IMG/VR virus record: IMGVR_UViG_3300025117_000601
Location: 26,939-90,938 of that record
DNA: 64,000 bases
Origin: a virus
Strand: one strand, 5' to 3'
Shown here in pieces: positions 20,055 through 61,196 of the stretch. Numbering within the stretch: position 1 is the first letter of the stretch; each line of letters starts with the position of its first letter. Below the pieces are notes generated by a model that ran no database searches, was not told where the DNA came from, and saw only the letters and a list, made by a program, of their open reading frames with translations. The position numbers and the translations under genes were made by a program.

Positions 20055-21288
20055 ACAAATAATAAAAAATAATAAAATAATGTCATTTTGGGATTTTGAA
20101 AGAAATACATTAGACCCAAATACTACAACGTGTCGCAGTAGAAAAATAATGTGTTGTAAATGCCGCTTAGGGCATATATGGGATGCTCCTGTATATAGTG
20201 TGGCAAGATATAAAGGTATTGGTTGTCCATATTGTTTAAATCATAAAGTTTTAAAAGGGTTCAACGATTTACAAACAACACATCCGGACATAGCTTCAGA
20301 ATTTCATCCGGTAAAAAACATTGGTAAATCACCAGATATGTTTACACGCAACTCTAGAGAGAAAATATGGTGGCTTGGTAAATGTGGACATGAATGGCTA
20401 GCATCAATATATACAAGAACTCATGGACGTAATTGTCATTATTGTAACTCACACAAAATTTTAATTGGCTTCAACGATTTACCAACGGTAAGACATGATA
20501 TAGTTTTACAATGGCACCCAACGAAAAATGGTGATTTAAAACCAGAGAATTTTGCACAATTTAGTTGCTCAAGAATATGGTGGATGGATGAATTTATGCA
20601 CGAGTGGGTTGCGACAATTCAGTCTAGAAGTCGTGGTAAGAAATGCCCATATTGTTCCAATAAAAAAATATTGATTGGTTTTAATGACTTAGCTACAACA
20701 CACCCTAAACTTGCCGATGAATGGTCAGATAAAAACACAATTAAATCAACAGATGTTACATATGGATACTCTAAAGACATTATATGGGAATGTCATTTGT
20801 GTGGATTTGGGTGGATTACAACAGTAAATAGTAGAACAAATAACTACAAACCAACCGGGTGCCCACGGTGTAATGCAAGTAAATTAGAAAAAGAAACGTC
20901 TAATATCTTGCAACGTTGTGGATATATATTAATAGATAGAAATGATTATGAACCACATAAATATTCTAAATTAAAAATATATATGCAAGAAAAGGGTTTT
21001 GATAATTGCAAAAACAAGAAACGGTTGCGATTTGATTTTTGGCTGCCAAACGAAAATACACTTATAGAATGTCAGGGCATACAGCATTATAAAAAAGAAT
21101 GTTTGAGAAAAATTGGTGAGAATGACACCATATTTAACGTAGAAAAATTGGATAAAATTATTAAACACGATAAAATAAAAAAGCGTTTTTGTAAAAAAGA
21201 AAGAATAAAACTTATAGAGATAAAATACGATCAAATTGACCGCATTGAAGAAATACTAATTAAAGAACTAGGTTTAACTGAAAGGTAA
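20041..21288 (+). CDS. Free-standing zinc-ribbon/Vsr-like homing endonuclease
   Basis: The 415-residue protein carries four zinc-ribbon repeats (residues 1-285, each with a CxxC pair such as CPYC or CHYC, GHEW-like motif and GFNDL linker). The C-terminal nuclease has FDFWLP and IECQGIQH, then the tail IKLIEIKYDQIDRIEEIL. It is the longest copy in the window. It begins within the primase gene and sits between primase and dNMP kinase, a typical homing position next to conserved replication genes. Confidence 0.8.
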   Translation: MTKHEQIIKNNKIMSFWDFERNTLDPNTTTCRSRKIMCCKCRLGHIWDAPVYSVARYKGIGCPYCLNHKVLKGFNDLQTTHPDIASEFHPVKNIGKSPDMFTRNSREKIWWLGKCGHEWLASIYTRTHGRNCHYCNSHKILIGFNDLPTVRHDIVLQWHPTKNGDLKPENFAQFSCSRIWWMDEFMHEWVATIQSRSRGKKCPYCSNKKILIGFNDLATTHPKLADEWSDKNTIKSTDVTYGYSKDIIWECHLCGFGWITTVNSRTNNYKPTGCPRCNASKLEKETSNILQRCGYILIDRNDYEPHKYSKLKIYMQEKGFDNCKNKKRLRFDFWLPNENTLIECQGIQHYKKECLRKIGENDTIFNVEKLDKIIKHDKIKKRFCKKERIKLIEIKYDQIDRIEEILIKELGLTER

Positions 21289-26107: not shown

Positions 26108-28033
26108 ATGAAACAAATAGCTATTTTGCATGCTCATAGTGATTTTAGTTTGCTAGATTCTATCGCCAAACCCAAACAAATCTACAAGCGATGCCAAGAA
26201 ATTGGAGCTTCAGCTTGTGCGATAACCGACCACGGCACCATCTGTGGCAGCGTTCAGTTTAATACTATATTCAAAGATATTAAACCCATAATTGGTGTGG
26301 AGGCATATTGTTGTAATAATGTTAGTAACAAAGACAATAGGGATTTCGCCCATCTGGTTGTGTTAGCCAAAAATTACGATGGATATATAGACCTATGTAA
26401 ACTTACTTCAGCATCTAACTTACCAGAAAATTTCTACTATAAGCCAAGGGTTGATCTAAATTTACTGAGAGCGTATTGTAGGGGAAACTGGATAGCGTTT
26501 TCGGGACACGCTGGCTCCCACCTATTTAATTCCATATTTGATAATCTTCCTGCCGTTTACAATGCTAGCCTGGAAAGTTCAATCAAAAAGTTGGTATCAC
26601 CAGATGCGGTTGCTCGCACATCAAAATTAGCGTTAGAACTACAGGACATTTTCGGCGTTGGCAATTTCTACATTGAAATCCAACTTATCGACGAGTGTAA
26701 TATAGCAGGGAAAGTAGGGGTAGAAGTATTGAGAGAGGTTTCCCGCAAGGTTGGCATTCCATGTGTGGCGACCCCAGATTCCCATTATTGTTATAGAAAA
26801 GACGCCGTTAACCAGCGTGTACTATTATGCACCAACATGCACACCACCCTACGGGAAGTCCAAAATAAGATGGTGCGGGGCGAAGATGTGGGAATGGGGG
26901 CTTTTTTTCGCACCGACTCTTACCACATTCCAGAATATAGCGAAATGGTGGCGGCTGGAAATACAGAGGGGGAACTAGAAAACACATTAAGGATAGCGGA
27001 CGCCTGTGAGCGGTACGACTTAACTCGCCCCCCTTCTCCTGCTAAATTTCCCACACCGAACGGCATTTCTCCCGAAGAATATTTAACCGAGTTATGTAGG
27101 CAAGGTTACAAGGATAAATTACCACTAATTAAAAAGGTAATGGAAAAGAAGGGATTAACTAAGGAGGATTACGGAAATAGGTTTAGGCATGAATTAGAAG
27201 TAATTAAGGAGGCTGGTTTAAGTGACTACTTTCTAACAGTTAGAGATATTGTACAATATGCTATTAATGATGGACAACTTGTTGGTCCAGCTAGAGGATC
27301 ATCAGCAGGAAGTCTAATAGCTTATTTGTGTGGAATTACAAAACTTTGTCCGTTAGAATATAATTTATTGTTTGAGAGGTTCTACAATAAAGCTCGTAAG
27401 GGGGCGATGCCGGACATCGACTCAGACTACATGACTGGAGAGCATGGTCGGGATAAAGTAATACAATATATTAGATATAGATATGGTAGGGATAAAGTAA
27501 GCAATATTGCGACATATGGTAGGATGCAAGGTAGATCGGTATTAAAAGATGTCCTAAGATCATTTGAGGCTTGTTCGTTCGAGGAGATGGGGAGAATTAC
27601 GGAATTTATTAGCGATGAGGGCAGTATATCAGAAAAACTTTTGGAAATGAGGGAGGCAGACAAAGAAAGCGGCGGCGACGGCGAAGCTAGTATTATTGAT
27701 TACTGTTTAGATACTTATCCAAAAGAGTTAAGTGAGTGGTGCTATAAAGACGATGATGGTAATTTACAAGGTCCATTAGCTAAAAAATTCCAAGTCGCAG
27801 TATCTTTAGAGGGGACTAAACGATCTCAAGGGAAACATGCTGGTGGAGTTGTTATTTCAGATCATCCACTATCTGAACTAGTTCCAATGATTAGAGACAA
27901 GGATGGTAATGAACTAATAGCTGGACTAGAAATGTCAGATATTGAAAAAAGAGGTTTAATAAAGCTAGATATCCTTGGTGTTAACGCCCTTAATAAACTT
28001 AGGTCTATAGAAAGGTTGGTTAATGAATTATAA
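26108..28033 (+). CDS. dnaE-N: DNA polymerase III alpha, N-terminal part (PHP, palm, thumb)
   Basis: The 641-residue product is the first half of a bacterial-type DnaE. The PHP domain at residues 1-280 keeps HAHSD (His8, His10) and TDHG (Asp41, His42). The palm has PDIDSD (Asp436, Asp438), and KLDILG holds the third catalytic aspartate at Asp621. The chain stops 20 residues later, just before the fingers domain. Fingers, beta-binding and OB parts are encoded at 28705, after a DnaQ gene. The stop overlaps that gene's start by 11 nt. The active polymerase should need both halves. Confidence 0.9.
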   Translation: MKQIAILHAHSDFSLLDSIAKPKQIYKRCQEIGASACAITDHGTICGSVQFNTIFKDIKPIIGVEAYCCNNVSNKDNRDFAHLVVLAKNYDGYIDLCKLTSASNLPENFYYKPRVDLNLLRAYCRGNWIAFSGHAGSHLFNSIFDNLPAVYNASLESSIKKLVSPDAVARTSKLALELQDIFGVGNFYIEIQLIDECNIAGKVGVEVLREVSRKVGIPCVATPDSHYCYRKDAVNQRVLLCTNMHTTLREVQNKMVRGEDVGMGAFFRTDSYHIPEYSEMVAAGNTEGELENTLRIADACERYDLTRPPSPAKFPTPNGISPEEYLTELCRQGYKDKLPLIKKVMEKKGLTKEDYGNRFRHELEVIKEAGLSDYFLTVRDIVQYAINDGQLVGPARGSSAGSLIAYLCGITKLCPLEYNLLFERFYNKARKGAMPDIDSDYMTGEHGRDKVIQYIRYRYGRDKVSNIATYGRMQGRSVLKDVLRSFEACSFEEMGRITEFISDEGSISEKLLEMREADKESGGDGEASIIDYCLDTYPKELSEWCYKDDDGNLQGPLAKKFQVAVSLEGTKRSQGKHAGGVVISDHPLSELVPMIRDKDGNELIAGLEMSDIEKRGLIKLDILGVNALNKLRSIERLVNEL

Positions 28034-28712
28034 TACATTTTGCGTTTTTGATTTCGAGACAGGTGGAAGAAACCCACATACCTGCGAAATATTACAAATT
28101 GGGGCAATTATGGTTTGTGAGCGAACACTAACCAGACTGTCTAGTTTTACATCATTTGTTAAACCTCATAATATGGACACTGTAGAGGATGACGCTCTAA
28201 AAGTAAATGGTATAAGCAGGGAAATGCTGGATGGATTGAGTGAAGCCTTTTATCCAGAGGTTATTTGGGCAAAGTTTTCAGCGTGGGTAAATAAATACAA
28301 TAAGAGTAAGGGGGCTCCATCTCCATATAATGCCCCTATTCAGTGTGGATTTAATACAATAAATTTCGATATGACAATTTTGCGACGTTATTGTAAACTA
28401 TATGGACCTTGGGATTTAAAAAATGAAGACCAAAAATTGTTTAATCAAGTGTATAAAATAGACGTTATGGATTTGGTATGGTTGTGGTTCGAGCATTCTA
28501 ATGCAGTGGAGAATTTGCGATTGACGACCATCGCCAAACATTTGGGGGTGGAAGAACGGCGATTAGAAAAAGCCCACGACGCTTTAGTAGATTGTGAATA
28601 CTGCGCTGACATTATAATTGAGTATTTACGCAGAAGTAGGCTTAAATTACCAAGTATGAATTATATGAAGGATATGTTGAAGCCTAAATCAAACGAGGTT
28701 GTCAATGAGTAA
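28023..28712 (+). CDS. dnaQ: DnaQ-type 3'-5' proofreading exonuclease between the dnaE halves
   Basis: The 229-residue protein is a DEDDh exonuclease. Exo I is VFDFETGG (Asp10, Glu12), Exo II is in GFNTINFDMTIL, and Exo III is AHDALVDCEYC near residue 186. It resembles the epsilon subunit that proofreads for DNA polymerase III. Its ATG lies inside the end of the N-terminal polymerase gene, and its stop overlaps the start of the C-terminal gene by 8 nt (ATGAGTAA). The three genes are therefore likely translated in fixed ratio. No clear beta-clamp-binding motif was noticed by eye. Confidence 0.9.
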   Translation: MNYNTFCVFDFETGGRNPHTCEILQIGAIMVCERTLTRLSSFTSFVKPHNMDTVEDDALKVNGISREMLDGLSEAFYPEVIWAKFSAWVNKYNKSKGAPSPYNAPIQCGFNTINFDMTILRRYCKLYGPWDLKNEDQKLFNQVYKIDVMDLVWLWFEHSNAVENLRLTTIAKHLGVEERRLEKAHDALVDCEYCADIIIEYLRRSRLKLPSMNYMKDMLKPKSNEVVNE

Positions 28713-30450
28713 ATTTTGTATTGAAAATATTCCATTAGATGATACAGATACCTACAAACTGTTAGGTGAAGGTAGAACATATGGAATTTTTCAGTTAGAG
28801 TCGCCATTAGGTCGCCACTGGTCAAAACAATTGTTACCAACTAGCATAAGTGATTTAGGCGCTTTAATCGCCATCTTACGCCCTGGTGCATTAAAGGCTT
28901 TATCAACAGATTTTCAAGGAAAAGATATAAATAATGATAGAGATTTAGTAGAAATGGCTGTCTGTAAAGACATAGTAAAACGCAATGGTAATAATTATAT
29001 TTTTGATAGAAAAACATTTGATGATGAAAATTCTTTATTGGAAGATAGTGGCAGACGAGAAAAAATTACTAAAAAAGTAACGACAGCCTACACCAAAAGT
29101 ATGACTCAAAGGTTTTGTGACCGCAAGAATAATAGGGAAGAAACAACGTATATAGATAAGTCTCTTGAACCAATATTAAAAGATACTTATGGTCAATTGA
29201 TATATCAAGAGGGTGCTTTACAAATAGCTAGAGATATTGCTGGGTTTACATTAGAGGACGGAGAATTGCTTAGAAAAAGTATTGGAAAAAAGCTGCCTAA
29301 ATTAATGGCTGAATTAAAGGATAAATTTATTGAAGGTTGTTTGCGTGTTAATAAAGTTAATAAAGAAATAGCAGAAGAAATATTTGGATGGATACAAGAG
29401 TCTCAAAAATATTCGTTCAACCAATCACATAGTATATCATATTCAATAACCACATATCATACAGCATATTGTAAAACACATTACCCCTTGCAATTCTATT
29501 GCGCATACCTCCAAGGTTCCGCTGGTAAAATCGACAAGCACGAAGAAGTAAAGGCTTTATATGCGGACGCTAAACAATCGGGAATCGAGGTTAAATTACC
29601 AGATTTACGCCACAAACAGGTACTAGCCTATATTAAGAACGACAAAGTATATTTTGGGCTATCTGATATAAAATTCGTGGGCGTTTCCGCCCTAAATAGT
29701 ATTTTACAATCAATAACCGAAATAGAAAATAAATTAGAGCAGGAAGTGTGCAACTGGTCGTGGACAAATTATTTAATACACTTTTCCGACAATATAGCCA
29801 GTGACACAAATAAAGCCCTAATTAGTGCGGGCGCTCTTGACTACCTTGGCGTACAACGTCAACAAATGCTCTACGAATATGACACTTGGAATTTGCTGAC
29901 TAAAAAAGAGAAACAATACATTAAAGAGGGCAGACAATATACCGATTTGTCAAATGCCCTTTTATTTTGTTCCCCCACTAAGAAAAATGGCGGTGGGTGC
30001 AACGGACAATCTAGGTCTAGCAAATTAACTGGATTTATTCAGCAGTTAGCCCACCCTGAACATTCCTTGCAAGATACTCCTGATAAACTAGCATGGTTAG
30101 AAGAGAAATATTTAGGAGTGTCGTTAAGTTTTCGTAGATCGGACGTTGGTGCCCCCGAGAGTAACTTTAGTTGTGCCGAGTTCAACGACGGCGGCGGGAA
30201 AGAGTACGTTGTAATGGCGGTTGAAGTGGAAAATGTTAAAAAAATTAAGACAAAGAATGGGGATAATCCAGGGGAGGACATGGCGATCTACACGGTTTCC
30301 GACAAAAGCGGTCAATTAGAGGGATGTGTCTGTTTTCCCGATGCCTGGCGAGAATTTGGGGCCATCATCTATGTTGGCAATTCATTGAAAATGCAGGGAA
30401 ATAGGGGGCGGAAGGGGGGGTTTATTCTGGAAAAATGCTGGGAAATCTAG
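28705..30450 (+). CDS. dnaE-C: DNA polymerase III alpha, C-terminal part (fingers, OB)
   Basis: The 581-residue product starts at IPLDDTDTY, the usual point after the DnaE palm, and continues with GIFQLES, LRPGAL and IYQEGALQIA of the fingers domain. FNQSHS marks the conserved tract where cyanobacterial split inteins sit, but no intein is present. A helix-hairpin-helix-like segment (SDIKFVGVSAL) and a C-terminal OB fold (about residues 500-575) follow. Together with the N-terminal part it rebuilds a full alpha subunit with little missing. A TTG six bases upstream is an alternative start. Confidence 0.88.
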   Translation: MSKFCIENIPLDDTDTYKLLGEGRTYGIFQLESPLGRHWSKQLLPTSISDLGALIAILRPGALKALSTDFQGKDINNDRDLVEMAVCKDIVKRNGNNYIFDRKTFDDENSLLEDSGRREKITKKVTTAYTKSMTQRFCDRKNNREETTYIDKSLEPILKDTYGQLIYQEGALQIARDIAGFTLEDGELLRKSIGKKLPKLMAELKDKFIEGCLRVNKVNKEIAEEIFGWIQESQKYSFNQSHSISYSITTYHTAYCKTHYPLQFYCAYLQGSAGKIDKHEEVKALYADAKQSGIEVKLPDLRHKQVLAYIKNDKVYFGLSDIKFVGVSALNSILQSITEIENKLEQEVCNWSWTNYLIHFSDNIASDTNKALISAGALDYLGVQRQQMLYEYDTWNLLTKKEKQYIKEGRQYTDLSNALLFCSPTKKNGGGCNGQSRSSKLTGFIQQLAHPEHSLQDTPDKLAWLEEKYLGVSLSFRRSDVGAPESNFSCAEFNDGGGKEYVVMAVEVENVKKIKTKNGDNPGEDMAIYTVSDKSGQLEGCVCFPDAWREFGAIIYVGNSLKMQGNRGRKGGFILEKCWEI

Positions 30451-49559: not shown

Positions 49560-49733
49560 ATGGCTAGTATAAAAGAATCAGAAGAAGCACTAAATAAACT
49601 TATTGCCGATGGATTAGCTTATATTTATATTAGAAAAGATTATTCTGTAAGTCTAGATGGGAATTTTAAGGCTGAAGAATTAAGACTAATAGCAAACGCA
49701 TTAAATAACCTAGAAAAAAATAGATGTGGGTAG
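49560..49733 (+). CDS. Small protein, third member of a phage family
   Basis: The 57-residue product has SVSLDGNFKAEELRLIANALNNLE, which matches the C-terminal half of the proteins at 14856 and 15257. It follows the glycosyltransferase by two bases and overlaps the next homing-endonuclease gene. Function unknown. Confidence 0.5.
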   Translation: MASIKESEEALNKLIADGLAYIYIRKDYSVSLDGNFKAEELRLIANALNNLEKNRCG

Positions 49734-50851
49734 ATATTTTAACAAAAGAATTTTTAACAAAAGAAATTCTTATAAACAACAAAGATTCTTTAGTAATAGC
49801 TACAGAGATTGGGTGTTCTGTAGATACAGTATGGAGACAGTGTAGAAAATTTAATATAACGAAGAAATTGTTTATTAGCGATATTAACCCAGAATGGTTG
49901 GCGTTATGGGATAACGATAAAAACACAAACATGGATATCTCAAAATTAACTTGTGGGTCAGAGCAAGAGGCGTGGTTTAAATGTGTTAATGGTCATTCTT
50001 GGATACAAAAAATTAACCAAATCAACAGAGGTAGTCAGTGTCCATACTGTACACATAAAAGAGTGGATATTGGAAAAACAGATATGGAAACACTATTTCC
50101 AGATATAACAACAATATGGAATTACAATAAAAATTACCCAACATTACCAAGTGATATATTCCCGTATAGTATAAAAAAATATTGGTGGAGGTGTCTACTA
50201 GGACACGAATGGATTGCTCACCCAGGTAAGCTAATAGGGTATTATAAAAAAACTAAAAAATGGGGATGTCCGTATTGTTCAAACAGAAGGGTTTTAGTTG
50301 GATTTAATGACATTCAAACCCAAAGACCAGACCTAGCAATAGAATGGGATTACGAAAGAAATATTGGTTTTGGACCAGAAGATGTAACGGTTGGTAGTAA
50401 TCTAATAGTAAACTGGGTAGATGAATTTGGGCATAGGTGGAGAACAAGAATTACTCATAGAATTCAAGATGGTACTAATTGTCCAATATGCAATGAAAGC
50501 AAATTAGAAAAACGAACAAGGAATACATTAGAAAAGTATAAAGTTAAATATGAACGTCAAAAAAGATTTGATGGGTGTAAAGACATTATTGCTTTGCCGT
50601 TTGATTTTTATTTGCCAGACTACAACATATTGATTGAATGTCAGGGAATTCAACACTTTGCTACCGATCATAAAATATCAAAAAAATTTGCTAAATCAAC
50701 CATGTTTTCGCCAAACGATTTATTAAAGTTAAAACTACACGACGAAATTAAATTATTATTTTGTATAGATAGGCAAATAAGATTTATAAGAATATCATAT
50801 TTAGAAATGGAAAATATAGAAGAAATATTAGTTAAGGAGCTATGTTTATAA
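49724..50851 (+). CDS. Zinc-ribbon/Vsr-like homing endonuclease with N-terminal HTH
   Basis: The 375-residue protein has an N-terminal helix-turn-helix (DILTKEFL ... EIGCSVDTVWRQC, residues 4-40), three zinc-ribbon repeats (CPYCT, CPYCS, CPICN; residues 50-250) and a Vsr-like nuclease (FDFYLPD, then IECQGIQHF). It closes with IRISYLEMENIEEIL. The HTH is related to that of the copy at 60045 and to the HNH enzyme at 24894. It is inserted among glycan genes, between a small gene and a methyltransferase. Confidence 0.8.
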   Translation: MWVDILTKEFLTKEILINNKDSLVIATEIGCSVDTVWRQCRKFNITKKLFISDINPEWLALWDNDKNTNMDISKLTCGSEQEAWFKCVNGHSWIQKINQINRGSQCPYCTHKRVDIGKTDMETLFPDITTIWNYNKNYPTLPSDIFPYSIKKYWWRCLLGHEWIAHPGKLIGYYKKTKKWGCPYCSNRRVLVGFNDIQTQRPDLAIEWDYERNIGFGPEDVTVGSNLIVNWVDEFGHRWRTRITHRIQDGTNCPICNESKLEKRTRNTLEKYKVKYERQKRFDGCKDIIALPFDFYLPDYNILIECQGIQHFATDHKISKKFAKSTMFSPNDLLKLKLHDEIKLLFCIDRQIRFIRISYLEMENIEEILVKELCL

Positions 50852-50852
50852 T

Positions 50853-51422
50853 ATGCAGCCTTCTATTTTTGATCCAAAATGTCCACATTCTACGCATTTC
50901 CCTCTACTTAAATACTTATTAGAACAAAGCAATGGTTTCGTAATCGAAATCGGATCAGGATATTCGAGTACGCCGCTATGTTATGAGATCGCCCATCAAA
51001 AGAATGGGTTTTGTTTATCACTAGAAAACGATAAATTCTTTTATAATAAATTTTTAGTAGATAATGACGCCAATTTTAAGATAGAGTCTGTTAAGGAATG
51101 GGTTTCGCATTTTCAGTCGCCAGAAATGGTTGACCTACCTAAATCGAGGGATTGGTTCGTATGCCTAGTGGATAACGCACCTTGGGTGGCAAGATTAACG
51201 GCCATTGAATATGTTAAAAACTTCGTTCCATACATTCTCCTGCATGACTGTGATTTTTACACAAGAGAAAAGTTAGTTGATGATTGGGGAAAATACTTTA
51301 AATATTATCGAATATATAACGTACACAGTAAACCATATAAATCTGGACCGCCGACATTACTTGGGTCTAATTTAGTGGAAAACCTAGAATTCAAAATTGA
51401 AGGTATGTATATCGAGCCATGA
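50853..51422 (+). CDS. Class I SAM-dependent methyltransferase
   Basis: The 189-residue protein has FVIEIGSGYSSTPL (SAM loop) near residue 28 and LSLENDKFF, in which the acidic residue would bind the ribose. VCLVDNAPWVARL and YILLHDCDFY follow in the positions of later strands. It is paralogous to the next gene. The target is unknown; a sugar is plausible because of context. Confidence 0.7.
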   Translation: MQPSIFDPKCPHSTHFPLLKYLLEQSNGFVIEIGSGYSSTPLCYEIAHQKNGFCLSLENDKFFYNKFLVDNDANFKIESVKEWVSHFQSPEMVDLPKSRDWFVCLVDNAPWVARLTAIEYVKNFVPYILLHDCDFYTREKLVDDWGKYFKYYRIYNVHSKPYKSGPPTLLGSNLVENLEFKIEGMYIEP

Positions 51423-51967
51423 TACCTATAACTCCCGCTAATAATAATCCGTTTGGTTCCCATCAGGCGGTATTAAATGCCGTAGTAGCGTCTCCCCTAG
51501 TTGGCAATAGAGTTTTAGAGTTTGGTTTGGGTGGATTTAGCACTGGTATTTTGTATAAAAAGGCTAGGCAGGGAAATGAGGGGTTGTTATTATCGTTCGA
51601 GACTGATATAAAATATGTCAAACAGTTTGAGTCATATCAGGATATTTGGTTTACTATTTTTCATGTTCAACATGGATGGAATTGGGTGTTCGATAATCAT
51701 CCCGCTATGAAAGAGCGGTGGAATTTGGTGTTTGTGGACCAACATCCGTACCCCCCCAGAGTTGAAACTATAAATAGGTTAAAGGATCAAGCCGACTATA
51801 TTATATTACACGACGCTGTTCATCTAATAGGATATCCAAAAAAAGAGAGAGAATATACCGATTATTTTAAGTATGCGCAAGAGTATCCCGTGGGGGGAAG
51901 TGACCCCAGAACATTCCCCAATACTATTATTGGTAGTAATTTTCACGTTTGCGAGTTTAAAATATGA
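51419..51967 (+). CDS. Class I SAM-dependent methyltransferase paralogue
   Basis: The 182-residue protein has VLEFGLGGFSTGIL (SAM loop), LLSFETDIKYV, LVFVDQHPYPPRV and YIILHDAVHL, the same series as in the upstream gene. The two overlap by four bases and form a tandem pair from gene duplication. Acceptor unknown. Confidence 0.7.
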   Translation: MIPITPANNNPFGSHQAVLNAVVASPLVGNRVLEFGLGGFSTGILYKKARQGNEGLLLSFETDIKYVKQFESYQDIWFTIFHVQHGWNWVFDNHPAMKERWNLVFVDQHPYPPRVETINRLKDQADYIILHDAVHLIGYPKKEREYTDYFKYAQEYPVGGSDPRTFPNTIIGSNFHVCEFKI

Positions 51968-52698
51968 CGACAACATACGACCTATTTATACCAGCCGCCC
52001 CCAAGGACTACTCAAAAGTCCCCTATAGTATTTCCTCTGCTAAAAAATATTTAATACCACAACCAGAGAACATATATGTTGTGTCGCCATCGCCAATACT
52101 AATGGATGGCGTAAGAAATTATAATGACGATTATGTATTAGACCTAGATTTGTCGTTATGTAAGCATAGAAGACCTCCGTGGTTAAAAATTATGTTTACA
52201 AAATTATTCCAAGATATAACCAAAAACAATCAATATTTTGTGATTGACGCCGACGCCATATTTCTAAAGCCATTTCCGCTGTTCTCCAATGATGATAAGC
52301 CAATTTTTTTCTTTGCTTGGGAACAGGATCATCAACCATATTTTAATCTGATGAAAAAGCTATATGGATATGGCAAATTACGCAAGAGCTTTATTTGTGA
52401 GATGATGATGTTCCAAAGAGATATATGCAGGGAATTATTATTGGGGATGTCTATCGAAGATTTTTGGGCTATAGTATGTGGAATAATAGGTGACGGAAGT
52501 AAATACCTCTTTGATGACTATGACTTTTATGGTAACTATTGTATGTATCATTATCCTACACTATACGACCACAAAGATATATCGTTAAATATGAGTGGTG
52601 GTAGAGATAAATATTATACGGCAGAGGAAATACAACGAGCAATAGACGAACAATCTAGAAGCGAGGCTTCGGTTATGACTTTACATACGTGGCTATAA
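51964..52698 (+). CDS. Glycosyltransferase-like protein (GT-A, DUF6492-type)
   Basis: The 244-residue protein starts with YDLFIPAAPKDYSKV and has YFVIDADAIFLKP, a DxD site near residue 92. The pattern is like bacterial DUF6492 glycosyltransferases. It ends at HTWL; an open stretch in another frame runs on immediately after. It overlaps the preceding gene by four bases. Confidence 0.7.
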   Translation: MTTTYDLFIPAAPKDYSKVPYSISSAKKYLIPQPENIYVVSPSPILMDGVRNYNDDYVLDLDLSLCKHRRPPWLKIMFTKLFQDITKNNQYFVIDADAIFLKPFPLFSNDDKPIFFFAWEQDHQPYFNLMKKLYGYGKLRKSFICEMMMFQRDICRELLLGMSIEDFWAIVCGIIGDGSKYLFDDYDFYGNYCMYHYPTLYDHKDISLNMSGGRDKYYTAEEIQRAIDEQSRSEASVMTLHTWL

Positions 52699-52963
52699 CC
52701 AATGGGGATGTGCCGATGGTGAAGACGTTACACCAGTAAATTTATCACAATTAGAACAAGCTATATTAGATTGTGGGGAAGGGGAATATCTAAGTTCTGG
52801 TTTATTTGCCGCCAGACAAAGGAAAATGCGACCACAAGGGGCTTATTATCAACAATGTGTTCCGTTAGAATTATATCACTTATTTGATGAATGCGGACCC
52901 GAAAGAGAGGTTGGGTTTGGAAATCCAAAACCACAACATAAAGACAAAAGTAAAGAATTATAG
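52679..52963 (+). pseudogene. Open coding-like stretch without a good start
   Basis: In a frame shifted by +1 from the preceding glycosyltransferase, codons from 52679 to the TAG at 52961 stay open (about 94 codons). Composition is coding-like, with a Cys/Gly/Pro-containing C-terminal half (RKMRPQGAYYQQC and FDECGPEREVGFGNP in it). The first ATG is at 52826, giving 45 residues. It may be a frameshifted extension, a fragment left after deletion, or a short gene. This is the main content of the 333-base gap before 53032. Confidence 0.4.
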
Positions 52964-53031
52964 ATTGACGAGAATATTATACATGGGATTGGATACGATA
53001 TACCTGGGACGCCATATAAAAGAGAAATGTA

Positions 53032-53616
53032 GTGCCATCACAATTTAACGAAGACCTAATCTTACAAAACCTATTCTGTGACAGGGGCGGCGGCACTTAC
53101 TTAGATGTTGGTGGTGGTCCCCCGATTGTTTCCTCGAATACGTTTTCGCTATACGAAAAAGGGTGGAACGGTTTGGTCATCGAACCCCAATCCGAATACG
53201 CCAAGCAATATAAAGAAATAAGACCGCGAGATATAGTACTTACAATCGCCGCCTCCAACAAAAGCGGAAAAACCACGCTCTATGACCATAGTATGTGGGC
53301 GACACTAGAGAAACCGTCAAAACGCCGCTTTAGCGAATTAGTGGAAAACCCAGTTGACGCCTATACATTAAACGACATATTAGATAACTTTCCTGCTATA
53401 CGTGATAACTGTCAATTATGTGATATAGACGTAGAACATCATGAAAAGTGTGTGATTGAGGGCATAGACATTAGTAAATTTAGACCAGAGGTATTTTTAG
53501 TGGAGGCGTTTGAATACAAGCAGTGGGAGAACATATTACTAGATAATGGTTATAAATATTATATGGCGAGTTCGCCCGTGCCAGTAAATAGGTTTTATCT
53601 AAGAGAGGATTTATAG
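53032..53616 (+). CDS. FkbM-like methyltransferase
   Basis: The 194-residue protein matches the FkbM family: YLDVGGGPPIVSSNTF (SAM region), SLYEKGWNGLVIEPQ (acidic ribose-binding strand), VLTIAASNKSG, and FLVEAFEYKQWENIL near the end. FkbM enzymes O-methylate sugars and polyketides. It starts at GTG 53032. It is the first of four FkbM-type genes in a row. Confidence 0.72.
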   Translation: MPSQFNEDLILQNLFCDRGGGTYLDVGGGPPIVSSNTFSLYEKGWNGLVIEPQSEYAKQYKEIRPRDIVLTIAASNKSGKTTLYDHSMWATLEKPSKRRFSELVENPVDAYTLNDILDNFPAIRDNCQLCDIDVEHHEKCVIEGIDISKFRPEVFLVEAFEYKQWENILLDNGYKYYMASSPVPVNRFYLREDL

Positions 53617-53639
53617 ATGAAGATTGAATGTGAAGTTGG

Positions 53640-54272
53640 GTGGAATATACTTTGAAAAACACATATTCGAGTAATGGGCAAGACCTGTGGATATTAGATC
53701 GAGTTGGTCCTAGTGGGTATTTTATTGAGGTGGGAGCCTCGGATGGAATTTCCGCGAGTAATTGCTATCTTTTGGAACAAAAAGGGTGGAGCGGCGTAGC
53801 CATAGATCCCTACACACCCAATTACCCCCTGCTTATTCAAAATAGGAAGTGCGAAATATGTTGCGCCGTAATCGACAGCGAAGAAAGAACGACTGACTTC
53901 TTATGCCAAACTAAATCATTAAGCGGACATTATGGATTATCTGGAATTACAGACCACTTTCCGTCCTCTCAACATAAGCAGTCAATTATTGATAAGTATG
54001 GCGGGGTCTTACAAAAAGTCCAAACCCACACACTAACTAATGTGTTACGACTGTGTAATGCACCATCCCACATAGATTATCTCTCAATTGACACAGAAGG
54101 GGGAGATTATAATGTGCTTTTAGGATTGAATTTCGATGAGTTTTCTGTATCATATATTAGCGTGGAATGTGCGAATCCTCAAAAATTTATTGATTTACTT
54201 GAGCCACACAAATTTAGATTGATTTATGACTTTAAACCGTGGCCGGATAAGATGTTCGGCAGGGAGAATTAG
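53640..54272 (+). CDS. FkbM-family methyltransferase
   Basis: The 210-residue protein begins with YSSNGQDLWILDRV and has FIEVGASDGISASNCYLLE (SAM loop), GWSGVAIDPYTPN, and IDYLSIDTEGGDYNVLLGL, the strong FkbM D-x-E-G motif. It begins at a GTG and is followed without gap by another FkbM-like gene. Likely methylates a sugar hydroxyl. Confidence 0.82.
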   Translation: MEYTLKNTYSSNGQDLWILDRVGPSGYFIEVGASDGISASNCYLLEQKGWSGVAIDPYTPNYPLLIQNRKCEICCAVIDSEERTTDFLCQTKSLSGHYGLSGITDHFPSSQHKQSIIDKYGGVLQKVQTHTLTNVLRLCNAPSHIDYLSIDTEGGDYNVLLGLNFDEFSVSYISVECANPQKFIDLLEPHKFRLIYDFKPWPDKMFGREN

Positions 54273-54866
54273 GTGTCAAATAGCCAATTTAACGAATTCG
54301 AGATTATACGAGAGCTACTTCCCAATATTGATGATGGGGTATATGTAGATGTTGGGGCGGGCGACCCAATTAAATTTTCAAATACTTATGATTTGTATAA
54401 TTTAGGTTGGTACGGACTGTGTATTGACTTACAATCACAATTCGTGAATGAGCATAGGCAAAAACGCCCTAGAGATATTTGCGTGTGTACCGCCCTATCT
54501 AATTATGTTGGTACAACAGAGGTATTTGGTGGAGGACACCATTGCACTATAGAAAAGGGCTACTTAAAAAATACCAATGTAAAAGTGTCAGTAACTACGT
54601 TTGATAAGGTTAGAGAACAGTACGAAGAATTATGTGCGAAATGTCTACTTTGCTCAATTGACGTAGATTACCATGAAGATAAATTTTTTCAAGGTATGAA
54701 TCTGTCATTATTTCACCCCAAGTTATTTATAGTGGAGTCGGTCAAGAAATATAAAGATGGTGCCGACGCCGAAGAGTTATGGGAAAATAAGCTGTTTGAA
54801 AACGATTATAAATTAATTAAAATTAGTAATATTGCAATTAATTACTTTTATATAAAAGCATATTAA
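54273..54866 (+). CDS. FkbM-like methyltransferase
   Basis: The 197-residue protein is close in pattern to that at 53032 (QFNEFEII, YVDVGAGDPIKFSNTY, WYGLCIDLQ, FIVESVKKYKDG). GTG at 54273 follows the previous stop directly, with GGGAG nearby as ribosome site. It is probably a tandem duplicate. Confidence 0.72.
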   Translation: MSNSQFNEFEIIRELLPNIDDGVYVDVGAGDPIKFSNTYDLYNLGWYGLCIDLQSQFVNEHRQKRPRDICVCTALSNYVGTTEVFGGGHHCTIEKGYLKNTNVKVSVTTFDKVREQYEELCAKCLLCSIDVDYHEDKFFQGMNLSLFHPKLFIVESVKKYKDGADAEELWENKLFENDYKLIKISNIAINYFYIKAY

Positions 54867-54869
54867 ATT

Positions 54870-55523
54870 ATGAGCAAAAATAACACCTATCTTTCCCCAC
54901 TATTTTTAGAAAACATTAACAAAAGCGAGGTCTCAACCATCATTGAGTGCGGGGCGGCGGACGGAGAGGACACCGTAGGAATTTATAACCACTATAACGC
55001 AAATGTGTACGCTTTTGAATGCGATCCAACTCTCCTGCTAATTTTACGCAAAAAGGCTGACTCTCGCATACACGTAATTGAAAACGGATTGTGGAGCGAG
55101 GAGTGTAGCAGGGAATTCCTATGTGTGGATAGAGATAAAAGTGTTAATAAAACGATGGGTATTTCATCAATGTATAAGTGGGCGAATTTGCCTGGTGAAA
55201 ATGCCCGCAATCCACTATATCTAATACAAACGCCAATTCTAGTACAATGTACCGCGATTGATGCTTTTTGTGAAAAAAATGATGTACACCCAGATATGTT
55301 GTGATTGGATGCTCAGGGAAGTTAGTTAGAAATATTAAGGGGGGCTGTTAAAACTTTAACCTATGTTAAATATATCATTACAGAAGTTAACTACAAACCA
55401 CAGTATGAAGGTGGTTGTAATTTTGGGCAAATTAAAGAATTTCTATTGAAGAATAATCTTAAAATAAGAGTGGACATACCCCTGTGTGGATTATTCGGTA
55501 ACGCACTATTTACTAGGGGATAA
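54870..55523 (+). pseudogene. FkbM methyltransferase broken by two stop codons
   Basis: Codons 1-144 encode the first part of an FkbM protein (TIIECGAADGED, VYAFECDPT, CTAIDAF). A TGA at 55302-55304 and a TAG at 55323-55325 interrupt the highly conserved D-x-L-x-L-D-x-Q-G-x-E-L-x-I-L-x-G-A region. Beyond them the same frame stays open to TAA at 55521, with KYIITEVNYKP and GQIKEFLLKNNLKI typical of FkbM C-termini. Except for the two stops, the gene looks complete. Either it is a recent pseudogene or it is read through. Confidence 0.75.
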
Positions 55524-55524
55524 A

Positions 55525-56415
55525 ATGAACGTCATTCTTACTCATGTTGGTTCAAATATACAAAGTTATTCTAAATATGGATGGCATCAATTACGTGTAT
55601 TTAATCCAAATATTGATATATATTTTATAGGGCAATCTCAATCGTTATTAGATAATAAAGATGATTTAAGAAAATATAATATTATACCAATTGAGGCAGA
55701 ACAGTTTAATAATAATCAACTGATTAAAGAATTTAGAAGACTACAATGGTATGACGCCTGGGGTTCTCCAAACACGGTTTTCCCTAGTCCAAAAAACTTT
55801 GTTACAGGGACAAGTTTGAGATTATATACATTAAATGCGTTTTTGGAGCAAGCTAATTTAATAGATAGTATTCATTTAGAAAATGATATAATGATTTTTG
55901 CCGACCTATACAACCTAATGGTAAAAATAAAGAATATCTATAATAAGTTTACTTGCACTGAAATACAAGACCATTACTCGTGTTGCGGGTTTACATATAT
56001 ACCACACCAAAAGCATTTAAATGATGTTTGCGTGTTTATGCTTAAACTATTAGAGTTAGGTGATAGTGGTATAAAAAATAAGTACAAATTTATTCCAATG
56101 GTACATGAAATGTTATTGATTTCTTTATGGGAAGATAAGATGCTCTTTCCCATATTGCCCACCGACCAATATTATGAAGAATTGGGGTGTTTGGTTGACG
56201 GATGTAGCGTTGGTCAGTTTTTGGGTGGCACGAATTGTTTTGGTCAGGGCGAAGGGTATGTGTCTAGCGAGCATTTTGTTGGTCGTAAAATAATGGACGG
56301 TACATATAAACCAGTGATATTGGAAAAACTACCCTATCTGGTTGATAAAGAGGGTAAATTACACAAACTAGCAAATTTGCATATACACTCAAAGAAATTA
56401 GAAAATTTTTGTTAG
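55525..56415 (+). CDS. Glycosyltransferase-like protein
   Basis: The 296-residue protein is a paralogue of the next large gene. Shared features are a start of the type MNVILTHVGSN/MKIVLTSVGNY, HLENDIMIF (an acidic site in DxD position), GQFLGGTNCFGQGEGY and a closing LANLHIHSKKL. Start is ATG 55525, one base after the end of the broken FkbM gene, rather than the upstream in-frame ATG in the FkbM remnant. Function is likely sugar transfer. Confidence 0.65.
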   Translation: MNVILTHVGSNIQSYSKYGWHQLRVFNPNIDIYFIGQSQSLLDNKDDLRKYNIIPIEAEQFNNNQLIKEFRRLQWYDAWGSPNTVFPSPKNFVTGTSLRLYTLNAFLEQANLIDSIHLENDIMIFADLYNLMVKIKNIYNKFTCTEIQDHYSCCGFTYIPHQKHLNDVCVFMLKLLELGDSGIKNKYKFIPMVHEMLLISLWEDKMLFPILPTDQYYEELGCLVDGCSVGQFLGGTNCFGQGEGYVSSEHFVGRKIMDGTYKPVILEKLPYLVDKEGKLHKLANLHIHSKKLENFC

Positions 56416-56475
56416 ATAATTAACGAAATTAACAAAATAGAAGAAATACTAAAACAAGCATTAAATATACCATGA
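56416..56475 (+). pseudogene. C-terminal scar of a homing endonuclease
   Basis: Directly after the glycosyltransferase stop, in the same frame, 56416-56475 reads IINEINKIEEILKQALNIP and then TGA. This matches the conserved tail of the zinc-ribbon/Vsr-like endonucleases here (for example YTEINNIEEILKREI at 17327). The rest of the endonuclease gene is missing. The next gene's ATG overlaps its last codon. Confidence 0.65.
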
Positions 56476-57338
56476 AAATCGTACTCACCAGTGTGGGAAA
56501 TTATCCCCCTCCGTATTTGCACCACTGTTTATCGCAAATTCGCCATTACGATAAAGATATAGAGGTAGTATTATTAACAGATCAGCTAATAAAATATAAT
56601 GAGTGGGCAAAATATGATGTAGAATTAAAACTGGTTTGTGGACGGTGGTTAGACTCTATAAAAGAAGTTTCTCCGCACAAAGGATTAAAATCACCAAACG
56701 GGTATGAAGAAAATGACTGGTTATTTGGTACTTGCGCCCGCATTTTCGCTATAGCGGATTACCTAGAGGGGAACGATCAAAGTCTTTATCATTTAGAGTC
56801 GGACGTTTTGTTGTATACATCCCTGTCTGAGTTAGACCATAATTTTAGACAACTTACTCAATTTTCCTGCTTACGAGCCACGTTATCACATATAAGCCTT
56901 GCTTTCTCATACATCCCTAGTTATAGATCAATAGTTGGTGTTTGCGAACACATCTTGAGTGAGTATTCTAAAAGTGAAGAGTTTTTACTAAAAAAATATG
57001 AGACCACCCCAACCGAGATGGTTATATTGTCAAAATTTAATGATTTATACATACTACCTTCCTGCAATACAGATTTTGGATATGGTCAGTTTGGAGCCTA
57101 CGATCCCGCCGCGATTGGTCAATTCCTAGCAGGACGCCACGGACACGAGAATGATGAAAGCTGGTGTGAAGACAGACATTTTCTAGGAGCAAAATTTAAG
57201 TCAAAAGAATGGACGCCTGTTTTTCAGGATGGGGAACCATTTATTAGGGATAACACTGGCGGTTTATTGTACAAACTCAATTCTCTTCATATGCACGAAA
57301 AATCTAAAATGAGTCTATTTTTAAGTGGAGATAAATAA
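56472..57338 (+). CDS. Glycosyltransferase-like protein
   Basis: The 288-residue protein has LYHLESDVLLYTSL, the acidic site in the GT-A position, near residue 115. GQFLAGRHGHEN and LLYKLNSLHMHEK match the paralogue at 55525. It starts just after the endonuclease scar. Donor and acceptor are unknown. Confidence 0.65.
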   Translation: MKIVLTSVGNYPPPYLHHCLSQIRHYDKDIEVVLLTDQLIKYNEWAKYDVELKLVCGRWLDSIKEVSPHKGLKSPNGYEENDWLFGTCARIFAIADYLEGNDQSLYHLESDVLLYTSLSELDHNFRQLTQFSCLRATLSHISLAFSYIPSYRSIVGVCEHILSEYSKSEEFLLKKYETTPTEMVILSKFNDLYILPSCNTDFGYGQFGAYDPAAIGQFLAGRHGHENDESWCEDRHFLGAKFKSKEWTPVFQDGEPFIRDNTGGLLYKLNSLHMHEKSKMSLFLSGDK

Positions 57339-57339
57339 T

Positions 57340-58011
57340 ATGGGAACGTTCATTGATGTTTATATGGAACAGTATTACAATATTCTAAACCAATTACCAG
57401 ATAGACAACGAGGTGATTCATTTTTGAAAATGTTTGAATTTTTGTGTCAACAACCTAATCAGCAAGATGGACTAACTATAATTGAGACCGGAAGCCTGAG
57501 ACCAGGAGGTTATGATATGCCGGGGGATGGGCAGAGCACTCTTTTATTCGACCATTTTTGCCGATGGCATAACTCGACTAGGCAAAAGCCATTTAAACAC
57601 ACAGAGTTATTTTCGATAGATATTAATTCTAATACTACACAACACGCCCACTCAAAGACAAGCGAATATACAAAATGTATAAATGATGATTCTATTAACT
57701 TTTTGTGGAATTTTCAAAGAACACCGAGCCTTGTTTACTTAGATAGCGCGGATATTAACTTTCATAATCCAATGGAGTCAAGCATCCATCACCTAAAAGA
57801 ATTTGCCTGTGTAATGAGATTATTAGGGCTACCACATAATCATCAGACATTGATTTGTGTTGATGACAACTGGTTCTCAGACCAAGACGGACGTATACCT
57901 AAAAATATCAAACCATCAGACGTTGGGAAGGGTAAACTAATCAAGGAGCTATTTGCCTCAATAGGCATAAAAGCGACACACGATAATTATCAGTTAATTT
58001 ATATTATATAA
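57340..58011 (+). CDS. Class I SAM-dependent methyltransferase
   Basis: The 223-residue protein has LTIIETGSLRPGGYDMPGDGQST near residue 50, an E-x-G-x-x-R loop in the place of motif I, followed by LFSIDINS and LVYLDSADINF. TLICVDDNWF is a later strand. This pattern occurs in phage and bacterial methyltransferase-24-like proteins. GGAG lies upstream of ATG 57340. Confidence 0.65.
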   Translation: MGTFIDVYMEQYYNILNQLPDRQRGDSFLKMFEFLCQQPNQQDGLTIIETGSLRPGGYDMPGDGQSTLLFDHFCRWHNSTRQKPFKHTELFSIDINSNTTQHAHSKTSEYTKCINDDSINFLWNFQRTPSLVYLDSADINFHNPMESSIHHLKEFACVMRLLGLPHNHQTLICVDDNWFSDQDGRIPKNIKPSDVGKGKLIKELFASIGIKATHDNYQLIYII

Positions 58012-58016
58012 CTAAC

Positions 58017-58706
58017 ATGGAATTGTACTTTTATTATATGCAAAGATCGGGTAGTCACGCCATTGTAAATTGGTTAGCTAATTGTATACACTTAACTACT
58101 AACGAAACAGTCAGATTACATAATGTAGGGACAAAACATGATTATGGAAAAGGTAATTTCAAACATTTTCTTAAAGTACACGAGAATATACCGCCACCAT
58201 CAAAGACCAAAAAAACCACAATTGTAATAATTAGAGATGTCTTCAATTGGGCAGCAAGCATCAGACAGTGCGACCTACAAAAATTTAAAAAAATCGAAAC
58301 ACCCAGAGAGAACTTTCCACTTGGGATTACTATTACTGAAAAGGTTGGGACTACGCATAACCCGATACAAACCGCTCAAAAATATATCGAGATTGCCCAT
58401 TCACAAAGCAAGAAAATCATTATCTTATTTAATAAGTGGTTTTTAGAAGAAGATTATCGCCAAAATATATGTTCACAATTAAATATAGACTATTTTGAGG
58501 ATGGATTAGATTGCGTTCCGTACTTTGGTGGAGGTGGAAGTTCGTTCGATGGTACAACTATGGATGGAAATGGCAGGAAGATGTTAGTAATAGAAAGGTG
58601 GCGGAATTTCGTAGATGACGACATATACATGAATTTTTTGCGCGGAAATCCACGTTTAATAGAAGTGTCTAATTCACTGTTTAATTTTTGCCCAATCTCG
58701 CTATGA
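58017..58706 (+). CDS. Sulfotransferase-like protein
   Basis: The 229-residue protein has QRSGSHAIVNWL (residues 9-20), matching the 5'-phosphosulfate-binding loop of PAPS-dependent sulfotransferases, and VIIRDVFNWAAS (about 70-81), matching their 3'-phosphate-binding motif R-D-x-x-x-x-x-x-S. It could add sulfate to a glycan made by this island. The low-confidence part is the acceptor. No APS kinase is seen nearby, so PAPS would come from the host. Confidence 0.65.
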   Translation: MELYFYYMQRSGSHAIVNWLANCIHLTTNETVRLHNVGTKHDYGKGNFKHFLKVHENIPPPSKTKKTTIVIIRDVFNWAASIRQCDLQKFKKIETPRENFPLGITITEKVGTTHNPIQTAQKYIEIAHSQSKKIIILFNKWFLEEDYRQNICSQLNIDYFEDGLDCVPYFGGGGSSFDGTTMDGNGRKMLVIERWRNFVDDDIYMNFLRGNPRLIEVSNSLFNFCPISL

Positions 58707-59350
58707 TTTCAGTAATAATTCCCTGCTTAGATAAGCATGTTTACCTTTTACCCGAGTTATTTGTGGCTTACGAAAACCAAACCGTTCGCCCTGATGAACT
58801 AATAGTGGTGGTTTCGGGCGACTTCAACACAAGTGAAATTTCCTGCTTAAATACCACGATCCCCCTAATAGTGTCCGTTTCAAAACAACGATTGTATGCG
58901 GGTGCCGCCAGACAGCGTGGCGTTGATATTTCCAATGGTGAGATAATTATATTTAATGACGCTGACGATATTCCGCATAGACAGAGGGTGGAGATAACCC
59001 ATTATTTTTTCAATAAATTTAACACTGTACATTTAAACGGACTGTGGAAAAGTGGTGATTTCAAATTCACCTACAATATACCCAGAATACCATTTATATT
59101 AGCAGAGGAAATAATAGAGAGAAGTATACTTAATTATAAGCCGTATGGGGGGTGGCTAGCGGCAAACGTTCACGCGGGCAACGTAGCGGTATCTAGAGAA
59201 GTTTTCGATAAGGTGGCGTGGACCAACAGTCAAAAGGGACAGGATATGGTGTTCTGTTTAGACTTACTACATACATTTAATAGGTCAATTATTGTGTTGG
59301 CAAATCTTATCAGATATAGAATTGAGTTATCGTCATGGGGGGTTGTGTGA
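58703..59350 (+). CDS. Family 2 glycosyltransferase
   Basis: The 215-residue GT-A protein begins with ISVIIPCLDKHVYLLPELF and has AAGARQRG-like YAGAARQRGVD, then IIIFNDADDIPH, the DxD site. Start ATG 58703 overlaps the sulfotransferase stop. It is shorter than typical GT2 enzymes, ending soon after the acceptor-binding part. Confidence 0.8.
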   Translation: MISVIIPCLDKHVYLLPELFVAYENQTVRPDELIVVVSGDFNTSEISCLNTTIPLIVSVSKQRLYAGAARQRGVDISNGEIIIFNDADDIPHRQRVEITHYFFNKFNTVHLNGLWKSGDFKFTYNIPRIPFILAEEIIERSILNYKPYGGWLAANVHAGNVAVSREVFDKVAWTNSQKGQDMVFCLDLLHTFNRSIIVLANLIRYRIELSSWGVV

Positions 59351-60042
59351 TTAAATTAAATAGTGATGATATCTATTATATTTATAATATGTTTGTGGAG
59401 CCATACCATAAACAATTGGGTAAATACGAGGATTTCTTCTGGTGGCTACAAAACTATAATAATAAAAAGTGGAATTGGGAAGGTAAAGACTTTCCTAGAG
59501 TTATAGCGTTATTAGAGTTCGCCAGTTATGTAAAAAAATATAATTTAGTTAGTAAAAAGGTTTTAACATTTAATGGAATTCACGACCCAGAATTAGAGTA
59601 TCTTCCACATAACTCTGGTGTGGATTACTTGTACGATAAACGAACTGAAGAAAACGATCTACATATTTGGAACCCGCCAATACATGACTTTGATTTTTGT
59701 TTATTAAATCAGACATTGGAACACGTTTATGATCCCATACTTTGTTTACAAAATATACATACACATCTCCTGCCTAATTCATATATTTGGATAACCACAC
59801 CTACAATTTCCATCCCTCACGAAACTCCACTACATTATTATAGTTATACGCCAACTGGACTTGGAGCAGTTATTATGTCTGCGGGGTTAAAAATTGTGGA
59901 GTGTGGCTGGTGGGGGAATCGTGAGTATCTTGATAAACTTTTAAATATAGGATGGATTGATTATACAAATCTATGTATTGAGCCATTAAAAAATGATCCT
60001 AGATTTTCAGTAATAACATGGGTGCTAGCGAAAAAAATATAA
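59335..60042 (+). CDS. Class I SAM-dependent methyltransferase
   Basis: The 235-residue protein has DFDFCLLNQTLEHVYDPILCL near residue 118, a hallmark of methyltransferase_11/23-type enzymes (L-x-x-x-LEHV-x-DP), and YIWITTPTISIPHETPLHYYSYTP after it. The glycine-rich loop is replaced by VLTFNGIHDPEL, so SAM binding may be atypical. It lies immediately before a homing endonuclease. Confidence 0.7.
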   Translation: MGGCVIKLNSDDIYYIYNMFVEPYHKQLGKYEDFFWWLQNYNNKKWNWEGKDFPRVIALLEFASYVKKYNLVSKKVLTFNGIHDPELEYLPHNSGVDYLYDKRTEENDLHIWNPPIHDFDFCLLNQTLEHVYDPILCLQNIHTHLLPNSYIWITTPTISIPHETPLHYYSYTPTGLGAVIMSAGLKIVECGWWGNREYLDKLLNIGWIDYTNLCIEPLKNDPRFSVITWVLAKKI

Positions 60043-60044
60043 AA

Positions 60045-61196
60045 ATGTATAAGTACAACAATATATTAACGAAAGAATTACTAGAAAAAATGTATATTGC
60101 GGACCAATTAAAACCAAAACAAATAGCTAAACTAGTAGGATGTAATATAAAAACAGTAAATTATTGGTTATATAAACACAAGGTTGTGGATAAAAAAGGC
60201 CACAAATTAATTGTTGGCGTAAATGATTTTAGTACATTAAGACCGGATTTAGCTCAACAATGGCATCCAGAAAAAAACGGTAATAAACAGCCAAAAGATT
60301 TTACTATTGGAAGCGATAAAAAAATATGGTGGGTTGATGAATTAGGGCATGAGTGGTTGGCTGATATAAACCGTAGAGTAAATAGGGGGAGCGGCTGTCC
60401 TTATTGTGCTGGCAAACGAGTATTAATTGGTTTTAATGATTTAATTACAACACACCCACAACTTTGTAAACAATGGTCCCCTAAAAACCAATTTGGACCA
60501 GAAATGGTTAGTAAGGGCAGCAAAAAAATTGTAATTTGGGTTGACGAAATTGGGCATGAGTGGAAAGCTTCTGTTTTAAGCAGAACGCATGGAAATGGTT
60601 GCCCTTATTGTGCTAGTAATATAGTTTTGGTAGGTTTTAATGATTTAGCCACAAAAAGACCTGATTTAATTAAAGAATGGAATTATGAAAAAAACATAAA
60701 TATATTGCCAACACAATTTACACAATGTAGCGGTAAAAAGGTGTGGTGGAAATGTTTGAAGTGTGGAAATGAATGGGTATCAACTATTAGTAATAGATTT
60801 AATGGCTGTGGGTGCCCAAGATGTAGCAAGAGTCAATTAGAAAAAAGCACACATCTTGTTTTAGATAAACTTTTTATTAAATGTGAACCACAATATACCT
60901 CAACTAGATGTAAATATAAAAAATCGCTTCCATTTGATTTTTATTTACCAGAATACAATTGTTGCATAGAATGTCAAGGAATTCAACATTATCCAAAAGA
61001 ATTTAAGAAATCACATTTCGCTCAACTAGATTGGACTACAAACGACCAATTAATTGCTCAAAATAAAAGAGATAAAATCAAGCGTAATTTCTGCAAAAAG
61101 AATAAAATTAAACTAATTTATATAAAATACGACGAAATTGACAAAATAGAAGAAATACTAATTAGAGAGTTAAATTTACAAGGAGAAAAGTTATGA
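60045..61196 (+). CDS. Zinc-ribbon/Vsr-like homing endonuclease with N-terminal HTH
   Basis: The 383-residue protein has an N-terminal helix-turn-helix (NILTKELLEKMY ... VGCNIKTVNYWLYK), zinc ribbons with CPYCA, CPYCA and CPRCS, each with GHEW-type and GFNDL motifs, and a nuclease with FDFYLPEYN and IECQGIQHY. It closes with KLIYIKYDEIDKIEEIL. ATG 60045 comes two bases after the methyltransferase stop. It appears intact. Confidence 0.8.
   Translation: MYKYNNILTKELLEKMYIADQLKPKQIAKLVGCNIKTVNYWLYKHKVVDKKGHKLIVGVNDFSTLRPDLAQQWHPEKNGNKQPKDFTIGSDKKIWWVDELGHEWLADINRRVNRGSGCPYCAGKRVLIGFNDLITTHPQLCKQWSPKNQFGPEMVSKGSKKIVIWVDEIGHEWKASVLSRTHGNGCPYCASNIVLVGFNDLATKRPDLIKEWNYEKNINILPTQFTQCSGKKVWWKCLKCGNEWVSTISNRFNGCGCPRCSKSQLEKSTHLVLDKLFIKCEPQYTSTRCKYKKSLPFDFYLPEYNCCIECQGIQHYPKEFKKSHFAQLDWTTNDQLIAQNKRDKIKRNFCKKNKIKLIYIKYDEIDKIEEILIRELNLQGEKL

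Follow-up and report, generated by a model that had tools for sequence, protein, structure and literature searches.

The closest described counterparts of the gene studied here are the FkbM (PF05050) proteins of Synechococcus phages S-H68 (QBP05882.1) and S-SRM01 (QPX48273.1). Both have the same conserved motif and fall into the same length class, and the S-SRM01 copy likewise sits between transferase genes. These two copies are open, whereas the gene described here contains two internal stops, and its identity to them is only 24-28%.

In-frame TAG or TGA codons inside otherwise good genes are also a feature of stop-recoding phages, as far as the accessible parts of the reports on crAss-like phages with code 15 (PMC9523058) and on phages with codes 4 and 25 (PMC10746230) go. 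In those parts, it was an increase in coding density that identified the code-15 phages, whose suppressor tRNAs are marked (PMC9523058); similar statements on coding density and suppressor tRNAs are made for the code 4 and 25 phages (PMC10746230). Recoding phages, as described there, gain density under the altered code and frequently encode release factors or suppressor tRNAs (PMC9523058, PMC10746230), whereas in the present record density falls and no such gene was found. With the ordinary nonsense pseudogene the gene shares premature stops, an open remaining frame, intact copies in relatives, and a lack of recoding machinery. Compared with an ordinary pseudogene that has drifted for long it is somewhat cleaner, having two nonsense codons and zero frameshifts. 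No description of such an interrupted gene was found in the accessible parts of the literature on phages, FkbM proteins, stop recoding, and premature stops.

Source Record and Gene Neighborhood

The window is a stretch of 64,000 nucleotides (G000:C1:26939-90938) from a linear IMG/VR virus record of 90,938 bases, which is possibly a fragment. Translations and database matches place a DnaE-like polymerase, a DnaB-like helicase, a ribonucleotide reductase, and many transferase-like genes on one strand, and this gene content is, as judged from sequence, that of a tailed phage. Another contig, IMGVR_UViG_3300025073_000391 (25,393 bases), is 100% identical to window positions 8876-34268 with no mismatch or gap, which means that more than one assembly of this virus exists.

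The polymerase is split (26108-30450): ORFs 26108-28033 and 28699-30450 are separated by a DnaQ-like exonuclease ORF at 28023-28712. The same order with all three parts occurs in 29 of the 36 viral loci that hold a relative of the first part; six of the remaining loci have the first part only and one has the first two, several of them near the end of the locus. By its recurrence in these loci, the arrangement is apparently a conserved split polymerase of a phage group. Reading of the translations further showed that four ORFs (17327-18277, 20041-21288, 49724-50851, and 60018-61196) share zinc-ribbon-like repeats and a C-terminal ECQGIQH segment. That segment looks like an endonuclease core, and the four ORFs are possibly a dispersed family of mobile endonucleases.

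The gene of interest is the last of a tandem of four FkbM-like ORFs (53032-55523, plus strand). Its three intact neighbors (53032-53616, 53640-54272, and 54273-54866; together 53032 to 54866, plus strand) resemble PF05050 with 53.0, 49.3, and 20.8 bits, respectively, the score of the third (54273-54866) lying below the PF05050 cut-off of 22.7. The starts at 53640, 54273, and 54870 share one frame, and the gaps from stop to next start are 0 and 3 bases. A PF05050 search of the whole record gave three places over the cut-off, namely two open ones and the interrupted gene, the latter flagged with '1 TGA, 1 TAG'. The surrounding sugar- and methyl-transferase-like genes most likely form a phage glycan-modification cluster.

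An FkbM Frame Interrupted by TGA and TAG

The interrupted FkbM-family methyltransferase gene occupies 54870-55523 on the plus strand and comprises 217 codons plus TAA, with a PF05050 match across both stops. Only the first part is actually open: the ORF at 54870-55304 encodes 144 amino acids, the predicted SAM-binding N-terminal half. It ends at an in-frame TGA (codon 145, 55302-55304), which is followed by six sense codons, LDAQGS (55305-55322), that form the core of the conserved motif, in which D147, Q149, and G150 are invariant. An in-frame TAG (codon 152, 55323-55325) comes next, and after it the frame runs on for 65 codons plus TAA (55326-55523), a residual stretch that has no family match on its own and holds no listed ORF of at least 80 amino acids. 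The TAA is at 55521-55523, and the ATG of the next gene is at 55525, one base on. The coordinates in the preliminary description, a TGA and a TAG six codons apart in a frame that continues to a TAA one base before the next gene, were thus confirmed.

Its statement that the frame is maintained past both stops also held up, in that codon use and conserved C-terminal residues carry on to the end. Under a codon model of the phage, the sequence after the stops scores -3.81 per codon when read in frame, whereas the other two frames, both of which hold many stops, score -4.40 and -4.93; because the model favors this frame and the alternatives are rich in stops, we regard the post-stop frame as coding-like.

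The family assignment was borne out as well. PF05050 aligns to the read-through protein over positions 1-169 of its 173, scoring 53.8 bits (curated cut-off 22.7), which is at the level of the intact neighbors, and a DNA-level match with 42.8 bits crosses both stops (G000:C1:81883-82392 in the coordinates of the record, '1 TGA, 1 TAG'). Neither part matches the family by itself: in profile searches, PF05050 was found neither in the 144-residue product, which is what translation under code 11 would yield, nor in the 65-residue tail. The 144-residue product has a match to RrnaAD below the threshold (17.4 bits, cut-off 24).

A model of the read-through protein, built with 13 sequences, was confident (pLDDT 88.6, pTM 0.88). 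It has strands at residues 23-27, 45-49, and 67-70, beta-4 at 143-146, a helix at 152-157, and more strands up to residue 216. With beta-4 in that position, the stop at 145 would remove most of this predicted strand and everything downstream of it. Most of the closest solved folds in Foldseek were SAM-dependent methyltransferases; the TM-scores were modest (near 0.5), and a sequence search of solved structures returned nothing convincing.

The Stop Sites in Related Sequences

Searches for close relatives found only distant ones. Pattern searches of viral contigs returned two stretches for the gene and three for its neighbor, none of them a relative; a near-DNA search with 50853-60042 gave no match in phage records, and a plasmid search gave two distant hits only. 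In a search of genome contigs (80 kept), the best segments were 21-41% identical. The gene itself had no match in 20 RNR-sharing phage records. An RNR-bearing phage (G001) was considered as a relative and rejected; apart from the RNR protein, in which it is 76% identical, it has too little in common with the record, and PF05050 found no match in it.

The comparison of the two stop sites is based on a scan of viral contigs with a three-sequence alignment, from which the best 80 of 139 loci were kept. These loci, together with PF05050 matches in phage records and two phage records, gave 67 aligned places that cover both columns. The TAG column, which lies outside the scan pattern, is Glu in 67 of 67, as had been proposed from the sequence alone. 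The TGA column was expected to hold Trp or Lys; it is Asn in 38 places, Trp in 28, and Cys in one, a spread that is biased since the scan pattern partly fixes this column. Lys occurs at none of the 67 places.

No stop was found in the aligned stretch of any of the 67 places, nor an internal stop in any of 62 PF05050 matches in other phage records, of which 51 come from 40 records picked for variety among the 80 loci and 11 from 20 other phage records. The premature stops therefore stand in a frame that homologs keep open. In a filtered six-frame scan, 59 and 66 homologous loci cross the two in-frame stops, whereas the other flagged places in the record are crossed by at most six loci each (292 of the 909 100-base bins were reached); we read those other places as alignments overrunning the ends of genes. 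On this comparison, the break is apparently peculiar to this copy of the gene. In the comparison with relatives, as suggested in the preliminary description, neither stop is shared by any of them, and the relatives are distant.

A Probable Recently Inactivated Gene

We conclude, with a probability of about 0.73, that this is a recently inactivated FkbM-type SAM-dependent methyltransferase gene, a pseudogenized member of a tandem array within a glycan-modification cluster of the phage. With the two nonsense codons, the polypeptide would end at residue 144, partway through beta-4 of the Rossmann-like fold; both the conserved LDxQGxE motif and the fold's C-terminal half would be missing from the product. 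From what is generally known about the loss of such a motif, the truncated protein would be expected to have no FkbM activity. The downstream genes would stay open, with starts of their own. A redundant role for the lost copy is plausible, as three neighbors resemble the same family.

The age of the break can be dated only loosely. The lack of a frameshift and the intact motif suggest that it is recent. Among the 1,935 single changes possible in the gene, 97 (about 5.0%) are nonsense, and therefore two nonsense changes would be accompanied, on average, by neutral changes numbering in the tens. For a drifting gene, a load of two nonsense changes, with the motif still intact and no frameshift, is light, and this counts against the pseudogene reading. 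In a leave-one-out comparison, the profile score of the gene was 145.7 bits, at the low end of, but within, the range of 13 intact relatives (143.0-243.1), and it matched 20 of 32 conserved columns (intact relatives, 20 of 34 up to 29 of 31). Such a low-end score is compatible with a gene that has drifted somewhat and also with one that is simply divergent. The earlier remark that there is no other decay is accurate for indels and further stops, of which there are none; missense decay is beyond what relatives this distant can reveal.

The proximity of the two stops had been presented as a notable sign. Two random nonsense changes in this gene would fall within seven codons with P = 0.06, and we do not find the clustering persuasive. 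A patch copied in from elsewhere in the record was considered and rejected: no other 50-base stretch has at least 32 matches to 55291-55340.

A Possible Sequencing, Assembly, or Strain-Mixture Artefact

Next in rank after inactivation is an artefact, in which the gene is intact and one or both stops are wrong calls or come from a minority strain. Both explanations fit the sequence; we consider an artefact possible, though distinctly less likely than a genuine break, which presupposes correct base calls. The sequence comes from a metagenomic contig, a search of viral contigs found no second one over this gene, and the frame is otherwise intact; a single poor read in a stretch of low coverage could, on general grounds, give two clustered wrong bases. 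On the other hand, the contig that is identical over 25,393 bases indicates that base errors are rare in that part of the record, if the assemblies are independent, although it stops short of this gene. Random errors are seldom nonsense (about 5% each), so two of them without a frameshift would need luck, and no equally strong interruption was flagged elsewhere in the testable third of the record.

Read-Through and Other Improbable Routes to a Functional Product

The preliminary description left the choice between a very recent pseudogene and a recoding site. The first of these gained support, and the second did not: both codons are regular terminators, code 11 gives the densest coding, and no recoding machinery was found in the record. 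Programmed read-through or recoding, with TGA and TAG decoded as amino acids and a full-length enzyme made, would account for the frame, codon use, and conserved C-terminal residues that persist after the stops, and for the location of both stops inside a conserved motif whose remainder is kept. It would require the decoding of two different stop codons within seven codons, and no relative shares these stops; we regard it as very unlikely.

TGA and TAG are both normal terminators in this phage. The 145 non-overlapping ORFs of at least 60 codons on the plus strand end in TAA (75), TAG (37), or TGA (33, including the TGA of this gene). Among ORFs followed by another ORF start at -8 to +5 bases, 25 end in TAA, 12 in TGA, and 7 in TAG. 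Nearby, the ORFs 53032-53616 and 53640-54272 end in TAG, 51419-51967 in TGA, and the gene that follows the interrupted one (ending at 56415) in TAG. ORF coverage is 0.932 under code 11 and drops once either stop is read, to 0.909 with TGA read, 0.898 with TAG read, and 0.866 with both. A genome-wide change of code was rejected on this terminator use and coding density. The base after each of the two stops is T, which also often follows the terminators of the phage itself (11 of 32 for TGA, 10 of 37 for TAG).

The suppressor tRNAs that were to be looked for elsewhere in the genome did not turn up: ARAGORN found no tRNA gene in all 90,938 bases, a result that covers the phage record and not its host; suppression by the host is a slim possibility to which nothing in the data points. 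The record, possibly a fragment, also contains no Rfam match, no release factor of the RF-1 family, and no Trp or Tyr synthetase gene, all of which argues against recoding; a suppressor or release factor encoded by the phage was accordingly rejected as far as this record goes. A full-length enzyme whose synthesis depends on a host, or on a stress state, that suppresses both TGA and TAG within seven codons of the motif seems more improbable still. If read-through were true, it would make the gene a rare case of dual-stop recoding in a phage without an alternative code.

Even less credible is a 144-residue N-terminal half that functions in its own right. Strands beta-1 to beta-3, predicted to bind SAM, are retained in this half, which also has the weak resemblance to RrnaAD, but it is without the conserved motif, and a tail that had long been unused would not be expected to survive. 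Least probable of all is the removal of the stretch between the stops by ribosomal bypassing or splicing: two stops flanking a short segment may look, on the surface, like the borders of a removable insert, but no Rfam intron family matched, and the alignment contradicts the idea, since each residue of LDAQGS has its counterpart in the invariant motif of the relatives, so that loss of the segment would destroy the enzyme.

Read as a recently inactivated pseudogene, the locus would be one more broken accessory gene, of an ordinary kind and consistent with the turnover of such genes in phages.
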